Part shown: piece by piece, positions 4,820 through 49,817 of the stretch
Layout of the letters: every line of letters starts with the position of its first letter
Position numbering within the stretch: position 1 is the first letter of the stretch
Source: Lepraria neglecta
Lineage: Eukaryota > Ascomycota > Lecanoromycetes > Lecanorales > Stereocaulaceae
Length of the DNA: 64,000 nt
Reading direction: 5' to 3'
Assembly: GCA_033220425.1 (NCBI GenBank)
Contig: CM065653.1
Coordinates: forward strand, 3,844,001-3,908,000
Position numbers and translations under genes: made by a program
The notes under the pieces: generated by a model
What the model was told of the DNA's origin: nothing
The model's database searches: none
Seen by the model: the letters and a program-made list of their open reading frames with translations, nothing else

Positions 4820-5464
4820 TCAGTCTTCGACTTCGTCGATAGCAAACTTAGCCTCCGAAGCTCGGTCCATCTGCTGAATCGTGATCCTCCCAATCCTGCC
4901 TTTCAATGGCTGTAAGAGTGCCGAATATGGAGCGACGTTTGGCCTGTCTCCTCCTAGTACTATTTCTGGCGGAGTACTAGTGACCAGATCGAGCCAACTG
5001 TCCAGAATCAAAAGGCTCTTCAGCAGCTTCTGGCTCTTCGGTCCCTTTACTTCCATAAGAGTTTCGATGAACCAATCCCACTGCTGCTGCTGTTTCGGAT
5101 AACGTGAGTCGGTTGGAAATTGAAAGCCTTCATTCATCCTGGTTGGCGATCGTTGCTTATTGGTCGTCTTGATCCGAAGACATATATTCTGTACGCGCCC
5201 GAGATGTTTCTTCAAAAAGGACCTTGTAGCAATGTCCTTCGGAACGTAGTATGGACTGGTAAGGGAGATTTGGAAGGTGTTGTTCGGGTAGTAGTACTCA
5301 GAAGCTTCCTGGTAGGTCTGATGGCAGGCAAGGAGCAAGCCGCGGACCGGGCGGTTTATGTCATCCTTGACCATGTCTTTAATGAAATTGTTGACGAGAC
5401 AGTAGGAGTATATGTTTTGGCGAATCTCCAAAGGAACTGTCAGGAGTGTGGGCGCTATGGCCAT
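4820..5464 (-). CDS. 2EXR/F-box-like fungal protein (214 aa)
   Basis: Single-exon gene with ATG at 5462-5464. It opens with the LLTVPLEIRQNIYSYCL motif, the start of the 2EXR / DUF7730-type F-box-like domain common in ascomycetes. The second family hallmark follows (LLLACHQTYQEASEYYYPNNTFQI). The remainder has no catalytic motif. Such proteins are thought to act as F-box-like adaptors, but no substrate is inferable. It looks intact: no internal stop and normal length for a short member. The neighbour on the right is a mobile element. Confidence 0.75.
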   Translation of the reverse strand: MAIAPTLLTVPLEIRQNIYSYCLVNNFIKDMVKDDINRPVRGLLLACHQTYQEASEYYYPNNTFQISLTSPYYVPKDIATRSFLKKHLGRVQNICLRIKTTNKQRSPTRMNEGFQFPTDSRYPKQQQQWDWFIETLMEVKGPKSQKLLKSLLILDSWLDLVTSTPPEIVLGGDRPNVAPYSALLQPLKGRIGRITIQQMDRASEAKFAIDEVED

Positions 5465-5852
5465 GGCTGGAACCCGAATGCACTTTATAGCAAGATAACA
5501 AGCAGTTTATCGGCTAGAGACCGTGAACTCGATACAGATTGCGGCTTAGATCGGAGCTGGCTTGGACTTTTCGAGATCAAATATGTGTGAGTGAGGATAT
5601 GTTCAGCTGCCTCAAAGATCGAAGCAACAGCAAGACGGCAAGCTCTACTAGGCTCAAAGGCTACAATTTAATGGTTAGATTGGAGACACAGTAGTATGTT
5701 TGTCAATACATAATCAAGAATCAGGCGGTTCTTGTTCGGAAAATTTGGAAGGCATAGTTCCATGTCGATAGGGCTGAGATGACGAATCTGACCTGTCGCC
5801 ATTTCCAAGGTTTGACTTCTCATCAGCCCCACCAGTTTGAGAGCGCCTCCAA
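5465..5852. other. Intergenic stretch, nothing recognised
   Basis: Separates the 2EXR-like gene from the TRIM. Its last five bases (TCCAA, 5848-5852) are the left target-site duplication of that element. Confidence 0.5.
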
Positions 5853-5993
5853 TGTTGTAATCCGTTGCTTGATTGCTTTCTATGCGATTCTAGAAGCCTG
5901 TTGCTAGCCGTTCTTTGTCTGTTTTGGCCATATATGAGGCCCTGGGGGCCCCAATTAGCTAGATCCTTCCTGGCCTATTGCCACATTGCAACA
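5853..5993 (+). repeat. 5' LTR of the TRIM
   Basis: 141 bp, TG...CA ends. It differs from the 3' LTR at roughly a dozen positions, largely transitions, so the insertion is not fresh or has been mutated by RIP. It contains a TATA-like ccatatat segment. Confidence 0.88.
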
Positions 5994-6151
5994 GGCCATG
6001 AGCCCGGACAGTGCCTATTCCGCTGCGCCTTTATGGGAAGGTTCCCTCGCAGCACGATATCTGCGTTGTATACATTCAGCCCTTGGATTTGCTTGCCAAT
6101 CGACTTACAGATATAGAGTCAGAGCTCACTGGAGGCATTATGGAGGAATTC

Positions 6152-6460
6152 GGCTCCCAGTCAGTTATTTCTGGGAGTATTTCGGTCCGGATACAGGGGA
6201 GGTAAATTTTCAGGCCTACGACGACTACTCAAGCCCTACACGGTTTTGTAGGCACGGCTCCTCAGTCAGATATTTCTAGGAGTATTTCGGTCCGGATACA
6301 GGGGAGATACATGGATTCTCAGGCCTACGACGGCCACTCGAGCCCTACACAGTTTTTTAGGCACGGCTCCTCAGTCTGTTGCTACTAAGAGCATTCACTC
6401 AAGCCCTACATCGCTGTAGGTACGGTCCCCGGTCAGTTACTACTAGGGACATTCGACTCC
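6152..6460 (+). repeat. Degenerate tandem repeat (~105 bp unit) inside the TRIM
   Basis: Units begin GGCTCC(C/T)CAGTCAG. Two full copies lie at 6152-6255 and 6256-6364. Two shortened copies follow at 6365-6422 and from 6423. They share a TATTTCTRGGAG and GGTCCGGATACAGGGGAG core and an AAGCCCTACA...GTAGG end. Non-coding. Confidence 0.8.
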
Positions 6461-6567
6461 AATCAGTTAATACGGGACTATCAACGACCTCTCGGACGCC
6501 GATAGATATTTTGGGTCCATGATTAAGGGGAGCGCTAGCAGGGATATATTTCTAGCATCAAGGGGAG

Positions 6568-6711
6568 TGTTGTGGTCCGTTACTTGATTGCTTTCTATAC
6601 GATTCTAGAAGCCTGGTGCTAGCCGTTCTTTGTCTGTCTTGGCCATATATGGGGCCCTGGGTGGCCCCCATTAGCTAGACATCCTTTCCAGCCTATTGCC
6701 ACATTGCAACA
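6568..6711 (+). repeat. 3' LTR of the TRIM
   Basis: 144 bp. Preceded directly by the purine-rich tract AAGGGGAG and followed by the right TCCAA duplication. Confidence 0.88.
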
Positions 6712-7890
6712 TCCAAGTGTGCCGTGCGTTTTGCTTCATCATCCGCCATACCCGAGAGAGGATGGGGAACCACCCGAAGCTACGGCCGAGCGCGGTTTCA
6801 ATTCAGCCTCTCAATTGCACCGTGCCGTCTTCCAAGAAGCTGGCCATGGCAACTGGTGACCAAGTACAGTCTAAGCCCCGAGCCTCTTGACTGCTGTCTC
6901 ACGCATGGCCAGGTGTCTGGAGGCTTTAAATCTCTTTCTCCTGTTAACCAAAGGAAACCTGAACCCCCGCGGACGGTCTAAGACGTCGAATGCCCATAAC
7001 TTCATCACCTACGTTGTACCGCAATATCCAGGAACCATGAAGCCACTCTCCACTAAAGCACCGCCCCCACTAGTCAAGAAGCATCTGGAAACTTGCCTAG
7101 GAAATCCCACCAACGCATTGCCAATGAACCAAATGCACTCTAACCATTTTGAGTCGACTAAGTAGCACAGAGCAATCGAAAGGACGGAACTACTTGTTCA
7201 GATCCGCGGTATATGACAGATAATTGGCTACTGACGACTTTGGCCCCCATGACCCGACCTGTAGCTGAAGCGCCCACCACGTGGAAAAAGTAGACTAAAG
7301 AAAGCCACCGCACGTGGCAGATATTGAAACAGGCGCCCATGGCTGATTCGAAGCAGGCAACTCGTTCCTAGCCTCGAAATTGACCGAAATTGGCAATGTT
7401 GCACATAGTAACTTATTGGAATATTCCGCTCGGGCCAATCTTCCGACTGCCCCCGGCCCCCAAAACGGCCCATGTTTTAAGCGAGTAAGCCCCCACGTCA
7501 ACCAAGGACGATTATTGATGTTTCACGCTTGCCTCATGTCATATCGCATGATGTAACCCTGCAATATCATCCAAGTAGCCGCGATGCCATGTGGTACCTA
7601 TGTATAGCTGTATGCGGTTTGGTCGCGTGCGTGGCTCAGACAGCACAGCTCCCATTAAATTATTGGAGCAGAGAGGTTTTGGTTTCCAGCCCCAGCACCA
7701 GATGGAAACAAAGGGCACCAAATGGGAGCAATAGATTGGTGGCTTTTACTAAGAAATGACGCTTCATAAAAGGGTCTGCAACGAATGTTATTTGAGTGTC
7801 TCGACGACACCGTGAAGATGCTCTTATTACTTTTCTCGAGTTATTCACTACCTTTCTCACTTTTCTCATATCAGTCGTCAGAGCAACCAG
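6712..7890. other. Intergenic stretch, no gene supported
   Basis: Several open frames on both strands overlap each other and show no domain, biased composition or splice structure. The last few hundred bases should contain the promoter of the gene starting at 7891. I identify no defined site. Confidence 0.45.
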
Positions 7891-36040: not shown

Positions 36041-36867
36041 TCCTAAGCTTGCAGCCCCGGAATGGATCTTCTAAATTTCTCTATGGTACCGACCCGAGTT
36101 TTGGACAATCGACGACAGCGCATAGCAGCTACCACAATTTTCGAAGAGTATCACGATCATTGTCGGTGATGATGCGGAGGATCTCGAGGACGGCATTTAC
36201 TTGAGGCATGAAGCAACGCCTACATCAGGCGAGGATAGGAAAGCTGTGGCGGCAAATCTTCTTAGCAGGATGCACAAGCAGGAAGGATTTGGATGTAACA
36301 AAGAGAGCTTGATTTGAGAAGTTAGCTTGATGGGGCCTTTGTGATGAGGTAAAACATACGCAAAGAAGGACAGGAACGATATTGGCGACAAGCTCGTGCG
36401 GCATGGATTGCAGTGGAAGACTGAACCGAGAGGTGGACGAAGGGACTGCAGGGTTTTACTGTCGAATCTTTGATTGCGCTTTTTACGCTGTGAAGGTCAA
36501 ATCGTCACAGGCGCGGATATCCGCATGCCAATATGTTGTATTATTACCGTTGAGACATGCACACGCAACATTATTTTCTCTCAAGACCTAGTTAGGCTAA
36601 TGGTCCAGGTACAGACTCTGTGGTATTTCTTGACTCTTTTAGTCCCATGCATGCGGTACAGCCTGCGTTGCAGCCTGACGCTACCTCGTAGTAAATCTGC
36701 AGTCATCACCTAAAATCCCGTTCTTCATTACCTGCTACATGTTCTATGCTTAATTGGCGCGCAAACATCCCTTCAACATCTCTATCTGCATTGCTCAATT
36801 CCTGAGCTGTGAAAGTGTCATTGTTGGATTACGTTGGTCTCAGGCCTTAGGCCGAATCATTCGCGCG
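36041..36867. other. Divergent intergenic region
   Basis: Between the SET gene (minus strand) and the 2EXR gene (plus strand), so it should hold both promoters. No specific site identified. An open frame extends upstream of 36868 to 36754 but opens at TTG and is likely leader sequence. Confidence 0.4.
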
Positions 36868-37608
36868 ATGGAGGATAAATCCGCCCCCACGCCGCGTGAA
36901 GATCAATCTTCAACTCTTTCGCTCGCTTCCTTCGAGCCTCATCCACCATGCCGATTCTTTGATTTGCCCATTGAATTGCGCGACAAAATCTACCGCTATT
37001 TCGTCATTAGTCGCCTCGACTGTCAATCCCACCCTCGTCTCTGGCGTCCTGTAGGCGTTGATGGCGGGATCTTTCCCATCGGTTACTTCGACCGAGATAC
37101 CGTTATACCACTTCTGCTCACATGCCACCAAATCCACGACGAAGCAGCAGCAGTGCTCTATGGTGAGAACACATTCGCTTTTCACATTTCAGGCTTAGCG
37201 GAGGGTCAGATCGCCTTCCTTGAGTGGCTAGCTCCGCGATATGTTCGACTGCTTCGACGCGTCTACATACGGACTGGATACAACGTTGACACTTATGGCT
37301 TCAGGCCCGAGGCTTCATCTCTGGGTCGCAACTATGAGGAGCCTACGCCTGAGCATAGGCAGATCAAAACATCACGAGATTTGGCTGTCTCTGTTGCGCT
37401 GATGAAGCAGGCATGGCCGGCAAAGTACAAAGCTATCATCAATACGGTGCTATATTCCTCGAGCGTCGATACTGAGATCGTGAGGAGGCAGAAGGGGAAT
37501 GACTGGCCGGCTTCCTCGTATTATTTGTGGAAGATGTTCGTAACAGACACTGAAGCGGAGAATCCGAGTAGGGAATTCAGACGCGTCAAATGGGAGAGAA
37601 GGGGCTGA
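36868..37608 (+). CDS. 2EXR/F-box-like fungal protein (246 aa)
   Basis: I chose ATG 36868 because the upstream extension has no ATG in frame. The protein starts with an acidic, Ser/Pro-rich leader, then the family motif CRFFDLPIELRDKIYRYFV. The central hallmark is PLLLTCHQIHDEAAAVLYGENTFAF and the mid-domain FLEWLAPRYVRLLRRVYI. It is the same broad family as the gene at 4820-5464, but the sequences differ, so it is not a recent duplicate. Presumed adaptor role; no partner inferable. Intact. Confidence 0.75.
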   Translation: MEDKSAPTPREDQSSTLSLASFEPHPPCRFFDLPIELRDKIYRYFVISRLDCQSHPRLWRPVGVDGGIFPIGYFDRDTVIPLLLTCHQIHDEAAAVLYGENTFAFHISGLAEGQIAFLEWLAPRYVRLLRRVYIRTGYNVDTYGFRPEASSLGRNYEEPTPEHRQIKTSRDLAVSVALMKQAWPAKYKAIINTVLYSSSVDTEIVRRQKGNDWPASSYYLWKMFVTDTEAENPSREFRRVKWERRG

Positions 37609-49568: not shown

Positions 49569-49669
49569 ACTCATTGCCAGTACTGTCGAATTCTATAAAT
49601 TGTTTTAAGCCATCATACACATACAGGCAAGCCTGCTGGCCAAACCTTCAGCACAAGTGAGTTTGTAGC

Positions 49670-49812
49670 TGTTGCAATCCGTTGCTTGATTGCTTTCTAT
49701 GCGATTCCAGAAGCCTGTTGCTAGCCGTTCTTTGTCTGTTTTGGCCATATAAGGGGCCCTGGGGGCCCCCATTAGCTAGATATCCTTCCCAGCCTATTGC
49801 CACATTGCAACA
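49670..49812 (+). mobile_element. Solo LTR of the TRIM family (143 bp)
   Basis: Same sequence as the two LTRs at 5.85 and 6.57 kb, with perfect 9-base inverted ends TGTTGCAAT/ATTGCAACA. It sits between five-base repeats GTAGC (49665-49669 and 49813-49817). No second LTR follows within the window, so it is a solo LTR made by recombination, or a truncated element. ATGAGCCC appears 11 bases right of it (49824-49831), the same octamer as the TRIM primer site but at a different spacing; it may be chance. Confidence 0.85.
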
Positions 49813-49817
49813 GTAGC

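Follow-up and report, generated by a model that had tools for sequence, protein, structure and literature searches.

A family of miniature LTR retrotransposons in a fungal genome with predicted half-tRNA priming and a likely Copia helper

The 859-bp element at positions 5853-6711 of the window (the whole stretch of DNA analyzed here, 64,000 nucleotides) belongs to a genuine family of miniature LTR retrotransposons (TRIMs). We consider it very probable that this is a TRIM family with predicted half-tRNA priming that is moved in trans by Copia elements, most likely those of the group denoted family A below. In the cycle proposed here, the TRIM would be transcribed from its own LTR and its RNA packaged in a Copia particle, most likely that of family A. 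Minus-strand DNA synthesis would be primed at the primer binding site (PBS) by the annealed 5' half of the initiator tRNA, whose end lies in the anticodon arm, and plus-strand synthesis by the GAGGGGAG tract. The Copia integrase, acting in trans, would read the TGTTGCAA...TTGCAACA ends and insert the cDNA with a 5-bp duplication, and many copies would later collapse to solo LTRs.

The window element and its copies in the genome

A first-pass annotation made from the window sequence had described a complete TRIM at 5848..6716, and the LTRs, the target site duplication (TSD), the PBS and the purine tract of such an element are all present there. The features of the window that belong to the family are as follows.

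5848-5852, + strand: left copy of the TSD, TCCAA, read in the window sequence
5853-5993, + strand: left LTR, TGTTGT...GCAACA, 141 bp, from repeat comparison in the window
5994-6007, + strand: PBS GGCCATGAGCCCGG, 2 changes relative to GGTTATGAGCCCGG, complement of the anticodon arm of the initiator-tRNA-Met-like gene L093
5998-6005, + strand: ATGAGCCC, inside the PBS stretch
6018-6029, + strand: TTCCGCTGCGCC, exact complement of the D-arm sequence GGCGCAGCGGAA of tRNA gene L093, a weak lead
6151-6376, + strand: internal tandem repeat, period 109, 2.1 copies, from a repeat scan
6560-6567, + strand: polypurine tract (PPT) AAGGGGAG, directly adjoining the right LTR
6568-6711, + strand: right LTR, 144 bp, from repeat comparison in the window
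6712-6716, + strand: right copy of the TSD, TCCAA, read in the window sequence
49670-49812, + strand: solo LTR of the same family, 143 bp, with GTAGC at 49665-49669 and 49813-49817

The direct repeats with TG...CA ends, initially put at about 143 bp, thus measure 141 and 144 bp in this copy, 143 bp being the commonest length among the copies; the identical TCCAA flanks and the purine tract before the right LTR are as first described. The LTRs differ by 11 substitutions (9 transitions and 2 transversions) and 3 gap positions and enclose an interior of 574 bp. The PBS is placed at +1, with no gap after the left LTR, because the usual family sequence, GGTTATGAGCCCGG, begins immediately after the LTR. 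Elsewhere in the window, Pfam matches include DUF7730, DUF7708 and Aa_trans; DUF7730 and DUF7708 are fungal domains, and the two DUF7730 matches lie at 4823-5506 (- strand), directly left of the TRIM, and at 36754-37605 (+ strand).

The family was searched for in the 42.0-Mb assembly of 11 contigs, whose size and gene content point to a filamentous fungus. The LTR 3' end is found at 193 places genome-wide (21-nt pattern, up to 3 mismatches), compared to 0 for the reversed pattern. We took 54 loci, which represent part of all copies, namely 37 from a whole-element search (40 of 166 candidates scored) and 17 from an LTR search (40 of 199 candidates scored). Pairing of LTRs in the window and these loci yielded 30 two-LTR copies and 33 unpaired LTR records. 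A 5-bp TSD is exact in 26 of the 30 two-LTR copies, contains one mismatch in three (L041, L058 and L075) and is lacking in L057; among the unpaired records, 23 of 33 are flanked by a TSD that is exact or has a single mismatch, one record at the edge of a locus having been passed over. One record counted as unpaired, L070, appears by eye to have two LTRs as well, the right one damaged, and the TSD TATAG. The PBS immediately follows the LTR with no more than one mismatch in 25 of the 30 copies (17 with exact GGTTATGAGCCCGG, 8 with one mismatch); it carries two changes in the window copy, lies slightly further in in L041 and L048, is truncated in L046 and is missing in L044. The PPT GAGGGGAG is found in 27 of the 30, a count that partly reflects selection since the pairing script required a loose PPT match.

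The first-pass annotation had named copies with other boundaries or devoid of TSDs as grounds for refuting its reading; the copies examined share the same boundaries and mostly carry TSDs, in favor of that reading. The presence of internal tandem repeats might suggest that the 143-bp repeat was duplicated in tandem, or that this is some other dispersed repeat, with no retrotransposition involved. Given the uniform boundaries, the predominance of exact TSDs, the PBS and PPT in their places and the dispersed unpaired LTRs that carry TSDs of their own, such an origin is extremely improbable, and tandem duplication without element structure is refuted by the TSDs of the copies.

The copies range in length from 361 bp (a deleted copy) to 3712 bp, and the longest two, L043 and L065, contain inserts. 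Repeat units of 69, 74 and 105-109 bp vary in number among the window copy and four other scanned copies, and L074 contains an additional 56-bp unit. The earlier description of the interior as non-coding holds for the window copy, where ORFs overlapping the element (ATG, GTG or TTG starts; ORFs starting before the last bases of the element) reach at most 97 aa and the 97-aa ORF has no Pfam match, but extends less well to the family: in 12 of 30 copies, the longest forward stretch free of stops is longer than the 95% level obtained from mononucleotide shuffles. A leader ATG-ORF of 27 to 246 aa is present in 17 of the 30, and the 246-aa ORF of L039 has four Pfam matches below the cut-off (best E 1.8e-5). 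We read the long stop-free stretches as chance openness from repeat units: because the 69- and 105-bp units are multiples of three, open units grow in number with the array, and the 74-bp units shift the reading frame. The data also leave room for small repeat proteins, which these stretches may encode.

Several loci show secondary rearrangements. In L045 (G000:C2), two solo LTRs (1001-1143 and 1982-2124) in opposite orientation have crosswise-matching flanking 5-mers (CCAAG exact; CAATA/CAATG with one mismatch), as expected after inversion by recombination between both solo LTRs. The 2.6-kb insert within the TRIM copy of L043 (1371-3980; G000:C1) contains a reverse ORF of 257 aa without a Pfam match. 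Since the full query finds one other place at 94%, and the two ends of the insert find many short ones, a nested mobile repeat with short derivatives is favored here, and gene capture is less likely. The copy in L065 harbors a second, short LTR-type element (approximately 1418-2823; G000:C6) with repeats of about 105 bp, TTAGCA...TGCTAA ends, the PBS AGGGTTATGAGCCCGG and purine tracts. The LTR end and PBS form of this nested element recur before one Copia place (L099, before L010), and AGGGTTATGAGCCCGG with a nearly identical LTR end is also found before another (L104, before L012).

Targeting of tRNA genes was considered and rejected, as Rfam gave no hit in the 54 loci (147,837 bases) at gathering score, and no strong target consensus was apparent by eye in 52 sites. 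Clustering was analyzed for 94 of the 193 LTR ends (those on contigs C1-C6 among 100 listed), merged to 85 insertions, and is weak: 5 neighboring pairs lie within 5 kb compared to 1.1 expected, with 6 of 1000 simulations reaching 5, and the corresponding numbers of simulations at 2 kb, 10 kb and 50 kb are 53, 68 and 335 of 1000.

The primer binding site and the initiator tRNA

All 14 nt of the usual PBS, GGTTATGAGCCCGG, are complementary to CCGGGCTCATAACC of the tRNA gene L093, and the window PBS is complementary to the same gene at 12 of 14 nt. The complementary stretch is the anticodon arm, so that the match to the initiator tRNA-Met anticodon arm proposed from the window alone is borne out and is even closer in the usual family sequence. 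The tRNA at positions 1476-1545 of L093 (G000:C2:547742-547831) is recognized by Rfam with 46.5 bits, and three pattern or DNA searches turned up no other initiator-tRNA-like gene. ARAGORN did not call this gene, although Rfam did, and its 5' acceptor strand pairs poorly with the 3' strand; L093 may be a pseudogene, an odd single-copy gene or a sign of incomplete assembly. The fit of the PBS to the anticodon arm, together with the presence of Copia elements with the same PBS, is consistent with the Copia/Ty5-like half-tRNA priming suggested previously, which we predict for the TRIM family from this complementarity.

Colinear with the PBS, TTCCGCTGCGCC at 6018-6029 complements the D-arm of the tRNA. 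The exact 12-nt match is found in the window copy, L057, L066 and L068 and, by eye, in L070, and matches of 10-11 nt are present in the three family-A leaders tested. The commonest TRIM leader, TTTCGCTGTACC, which accounts for 15 of 31 leaders, among them those of 6 of the 8 copies whose two LTRs are identical, shows no significant Watson-Crick match to the D-arm where tested, and the match is not significant in Copia families B, C and D either. The D-arm is a possible second primer contact, a weak lead that took shape after the sequence had been seen.

Copia relatives and the chimeric copy

The Copia reverse transcriptase domain, RVT_2, was detected at 52 places in the genome, 30 of which were examined as loci. 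Seven of the 30 (L011, L022, L027, L028, L029, L030 and L032) constitute family A, the LTRs of which begin with TGTTGCAATCTGGTTGCCTGATTGCTCTTTATGCGATTCCATTG or a similar sequence, each preceded by CTCGAGGGGAG. The LTR start of L022 is 77-86% identical to TRIM LTR starts over 37-51 bp, the LTR middles of TRIM and family A are unrelated, and the whole-length LTRs of L022 and TRIM are unlike. The LTR 3' end CCATTGCAACA is present in L022, and mutated versions of it occur in the left LTRs that precede L029 and L030 (L097 and L098). The PBS, the PPT, the LTR ends and a leader motif are common to TRIM and family A, which is therefore the likely helper as judged from sequence features. The first-pass annotation had proposed a search for an autonomous Copia element with shared LTR ends and primer site. 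Family A shares both, but all seven RVT_2 stretches examined carry stop codons, so that no working family-A helper is seen among them. A probable further family-A place is C7:3200355, with a family-A-like leader (92%) and, downstream at C7:3202949, a stop-free partial RVT_2 match covering 103 of 244 positions. Derivation of the TRIM interior from the family-A gag is unsupported by shuffle tests against four TRIM interiors: L107 matched no better than shuffles (359-956 of 1000 reached the score), and L106 did slightly better, its score being reached by 3-49 of 1000 over a stretch of about 18 nt.

One chimeric TRIM/family-A copy was found.

C2:2585773-2586530, minus strand: chimeric copy L046, 758 bp, with TRIM LTRs and AGCAG on both sides

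The LTRs of L046 differ by 3 transitions. The first ~350 nt of its interior comprise a family-A leader followed by the first part of an open frame, which begins with MEEGRGLFAFAKLKGPDNFKTWW and is read as the gag start from its position only, the gag-like fragment having no Pfam match; this part matches 14 other places in the genome (76-92%). The remainder corresponds to the 3' part of TRIM, with identities of up to 99% to other copies of the family, and at the right breakpoint family A has CTGCCCGACTGGG where TRIM has GGATACAGGGG. In the simplest reading, L046 would have arisen by template switching between two RNAs co-packaged in a single particle, and the hybrid suggests that the TRIM family has made use of the machinery of a larger Copia element. 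Alternatively, a family-A copy could have converted a TRIM at the DNA level, in which case L046 would be uninformative on shared particles; this could account for the 7-nt deletion at the LTR/PBS junction and for the short, inconsistent similarity at the 3' breakpoint. We consider conversion unlikely because homology at the breakpoints is only short, both LTRs and an exact TSD are present, and template switching has been reported for complex LTR elements of Triticeae (PMC1950507). Locus L105 (G000:C6:3985640-3986700), examined on the same grounds, contains a TRIM LTR and PBS followed by unrelated sequence and is either a truncated copy or another junction.

Three other Copia families have a PBS in common with TRIM: B (L099 and L104), C (L094, L096, L102 and L103) and D (L100 and L101). 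The LTR 3' ends beside the PBS are unrelated to TRIM in all three, and a wider LTR stretch, compared for family C only, had no match in the window.

Mutation, helper candidates and known TRIMs

Among the 28 elements for which LTR pairs were compared (L041 and L044 were left out), 8 pairs are identical, and therefore part of the TRIM family moved recently; the divergence of the window copy, 0.078, is the third highest. The pairs differ by 105 transitions and 17 transversions, and 75 of the 105 transitions are in CpA context compared to 32.7 expected, an excess that carries the signature of repeat-induced point mutation (RIP). Dating by LTR divergence was dropped for this reason, and no ages were computed. 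The TpA/ApT ratio is at least 1.2 in 7 of 30 TRIM copies (L041, L048, L057, L059, L060, L062 and L064) and, RIP-like, 1.20-1.65 in the seven family-A RVT_2 stretches, compared to 0.71 in the window; it is 0.63-0.73 in L009, L010, L013-L015 and L017, and 0.89 in L016.

Damage in all seven family-A stretches examined, alongside identity in 8 of 28 TRIM LTR pairs, raises the alternative that recent TRIM copies were moved by a less damaged Copia element with the same PBS, from family C (L013-L015 and L017) or D (L009 and L016), family A being a past helper only. In these families GGTTATGAGCCCGG immediately follows an LTR-like end in CA, the RVT_2 stretches of L013-L015 are stop-free, and the above ratios of L009, L013-L015 and L017 show no RIP-like bias. 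Their LTR 3' ends and leaders are nevertheless unlike those of TRIM, and the sole chimera found joins TRIM to family A; we regard a family C or D helper as somewhat unlikely and retain family A as the likely one. A more elaborate and rather improbable scenario would combine several of these elements: the TRIM would have outlived a co-packaged Copia helper, indicated by L046, that was disabled by repeat-directed C-to-T mutation; the short, little mutated copies would last have been moved by another Copia with the same half-tRNA PBS; and the primer contact would be bipartite, involving the anticodon arm and the D-arm, both in the 5' half of the tRNA.

Plant TRIMs are small, gene-less elements with LTRs, a PBS, a PPT and TSDs, and their PBS mostly fits the 3' end of tRNA-Met. 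The present family is similar to them in size, lack of genes, LTRs, PBS, PPT and TSDs, and differs in that its PBS fits the anticodon arm and its interior contains tandem arrays of varying length. A paper on plant TRIMs is PMC4717578. Priming from the anticodon region of tRNA-iMet, at an internal tRNA end, is described for yeast Ty5 and Drosophila copia, which are of the Copia superfamily (PMC5371799, PMC10886601); half-tRNA priming of the same kind is predicted for the TRIM family from its sequence, whereas Ty5 and copia are autonomous elements with studied primers (PMC5371799).

The statement that TRIMs are little described in fungi stands only in part, since they have been reported in ascomycetes (PMC4112212, PMC4646964) and basidiomycetes (PMC5689174). 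In the ascomycete Cochliobolus heterostrophus, 7 Copia-related and 2 Gypsy-related TRIMs and 3 Copia solo LTRs are described (PMC4112212). Copia-related TRIMs and solo LTRs are thus shared with the present family, whereas the part of that paper available to us holds no PBS or chimera detail of the kind given here. TRIMs have also been counted in Boletales (PMC5689174) and named in Venturia (PMC4646964), and Pseudocercospora was screened for them (PMC13041039). The closest likeness is to Helenus, TRIMs of rusts and some Agaricomycetes described in 2024, which have an anticodon-loop iMet PBS and Copia as the proposed helper (PMC10886601). The present family has in common with them that it is a fungal TRIM with an anticodon iMet PBS and a proposed Copia helper. 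What defines Helenus is a tRNA-derived sequence within the LTRs (PMC10886601), and none was found in the window element: Rfam gave no tRNA match in the window (gathering score) or in 5801-6760 (E up to 5), and ARAGORN, which also missed L093, found none either. The text of PMC10886601, as far as available, does not mention ascomycetes, Aspergillus, Penicillium, Talaromyces, chimeras or a template switch, and the accessible parts of PMC3562529 and PMC3248453 contain nothing specific to the TRIM family. A literature search made without the species name found no paper naming this family, which is a weak indication. As fungal TRIMs with an anticodon-loop iMet PBS and Copia as the putative helper are published under Helenus, we consider the family new and its kind already known.

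One genome thus contains a well-populated fungal TRIM family that includes young copies, together with a candidate helper and a natural chimera. Such a genome suits tests of TRIM trans-mobilization by Copia and of half-tRNA priming, as well as of RIP-like mutation of long helpers versus short parasites. Of most interest are the chimera that points to the helper and the juxtaposition of a mutated helper with young TRIM copies.
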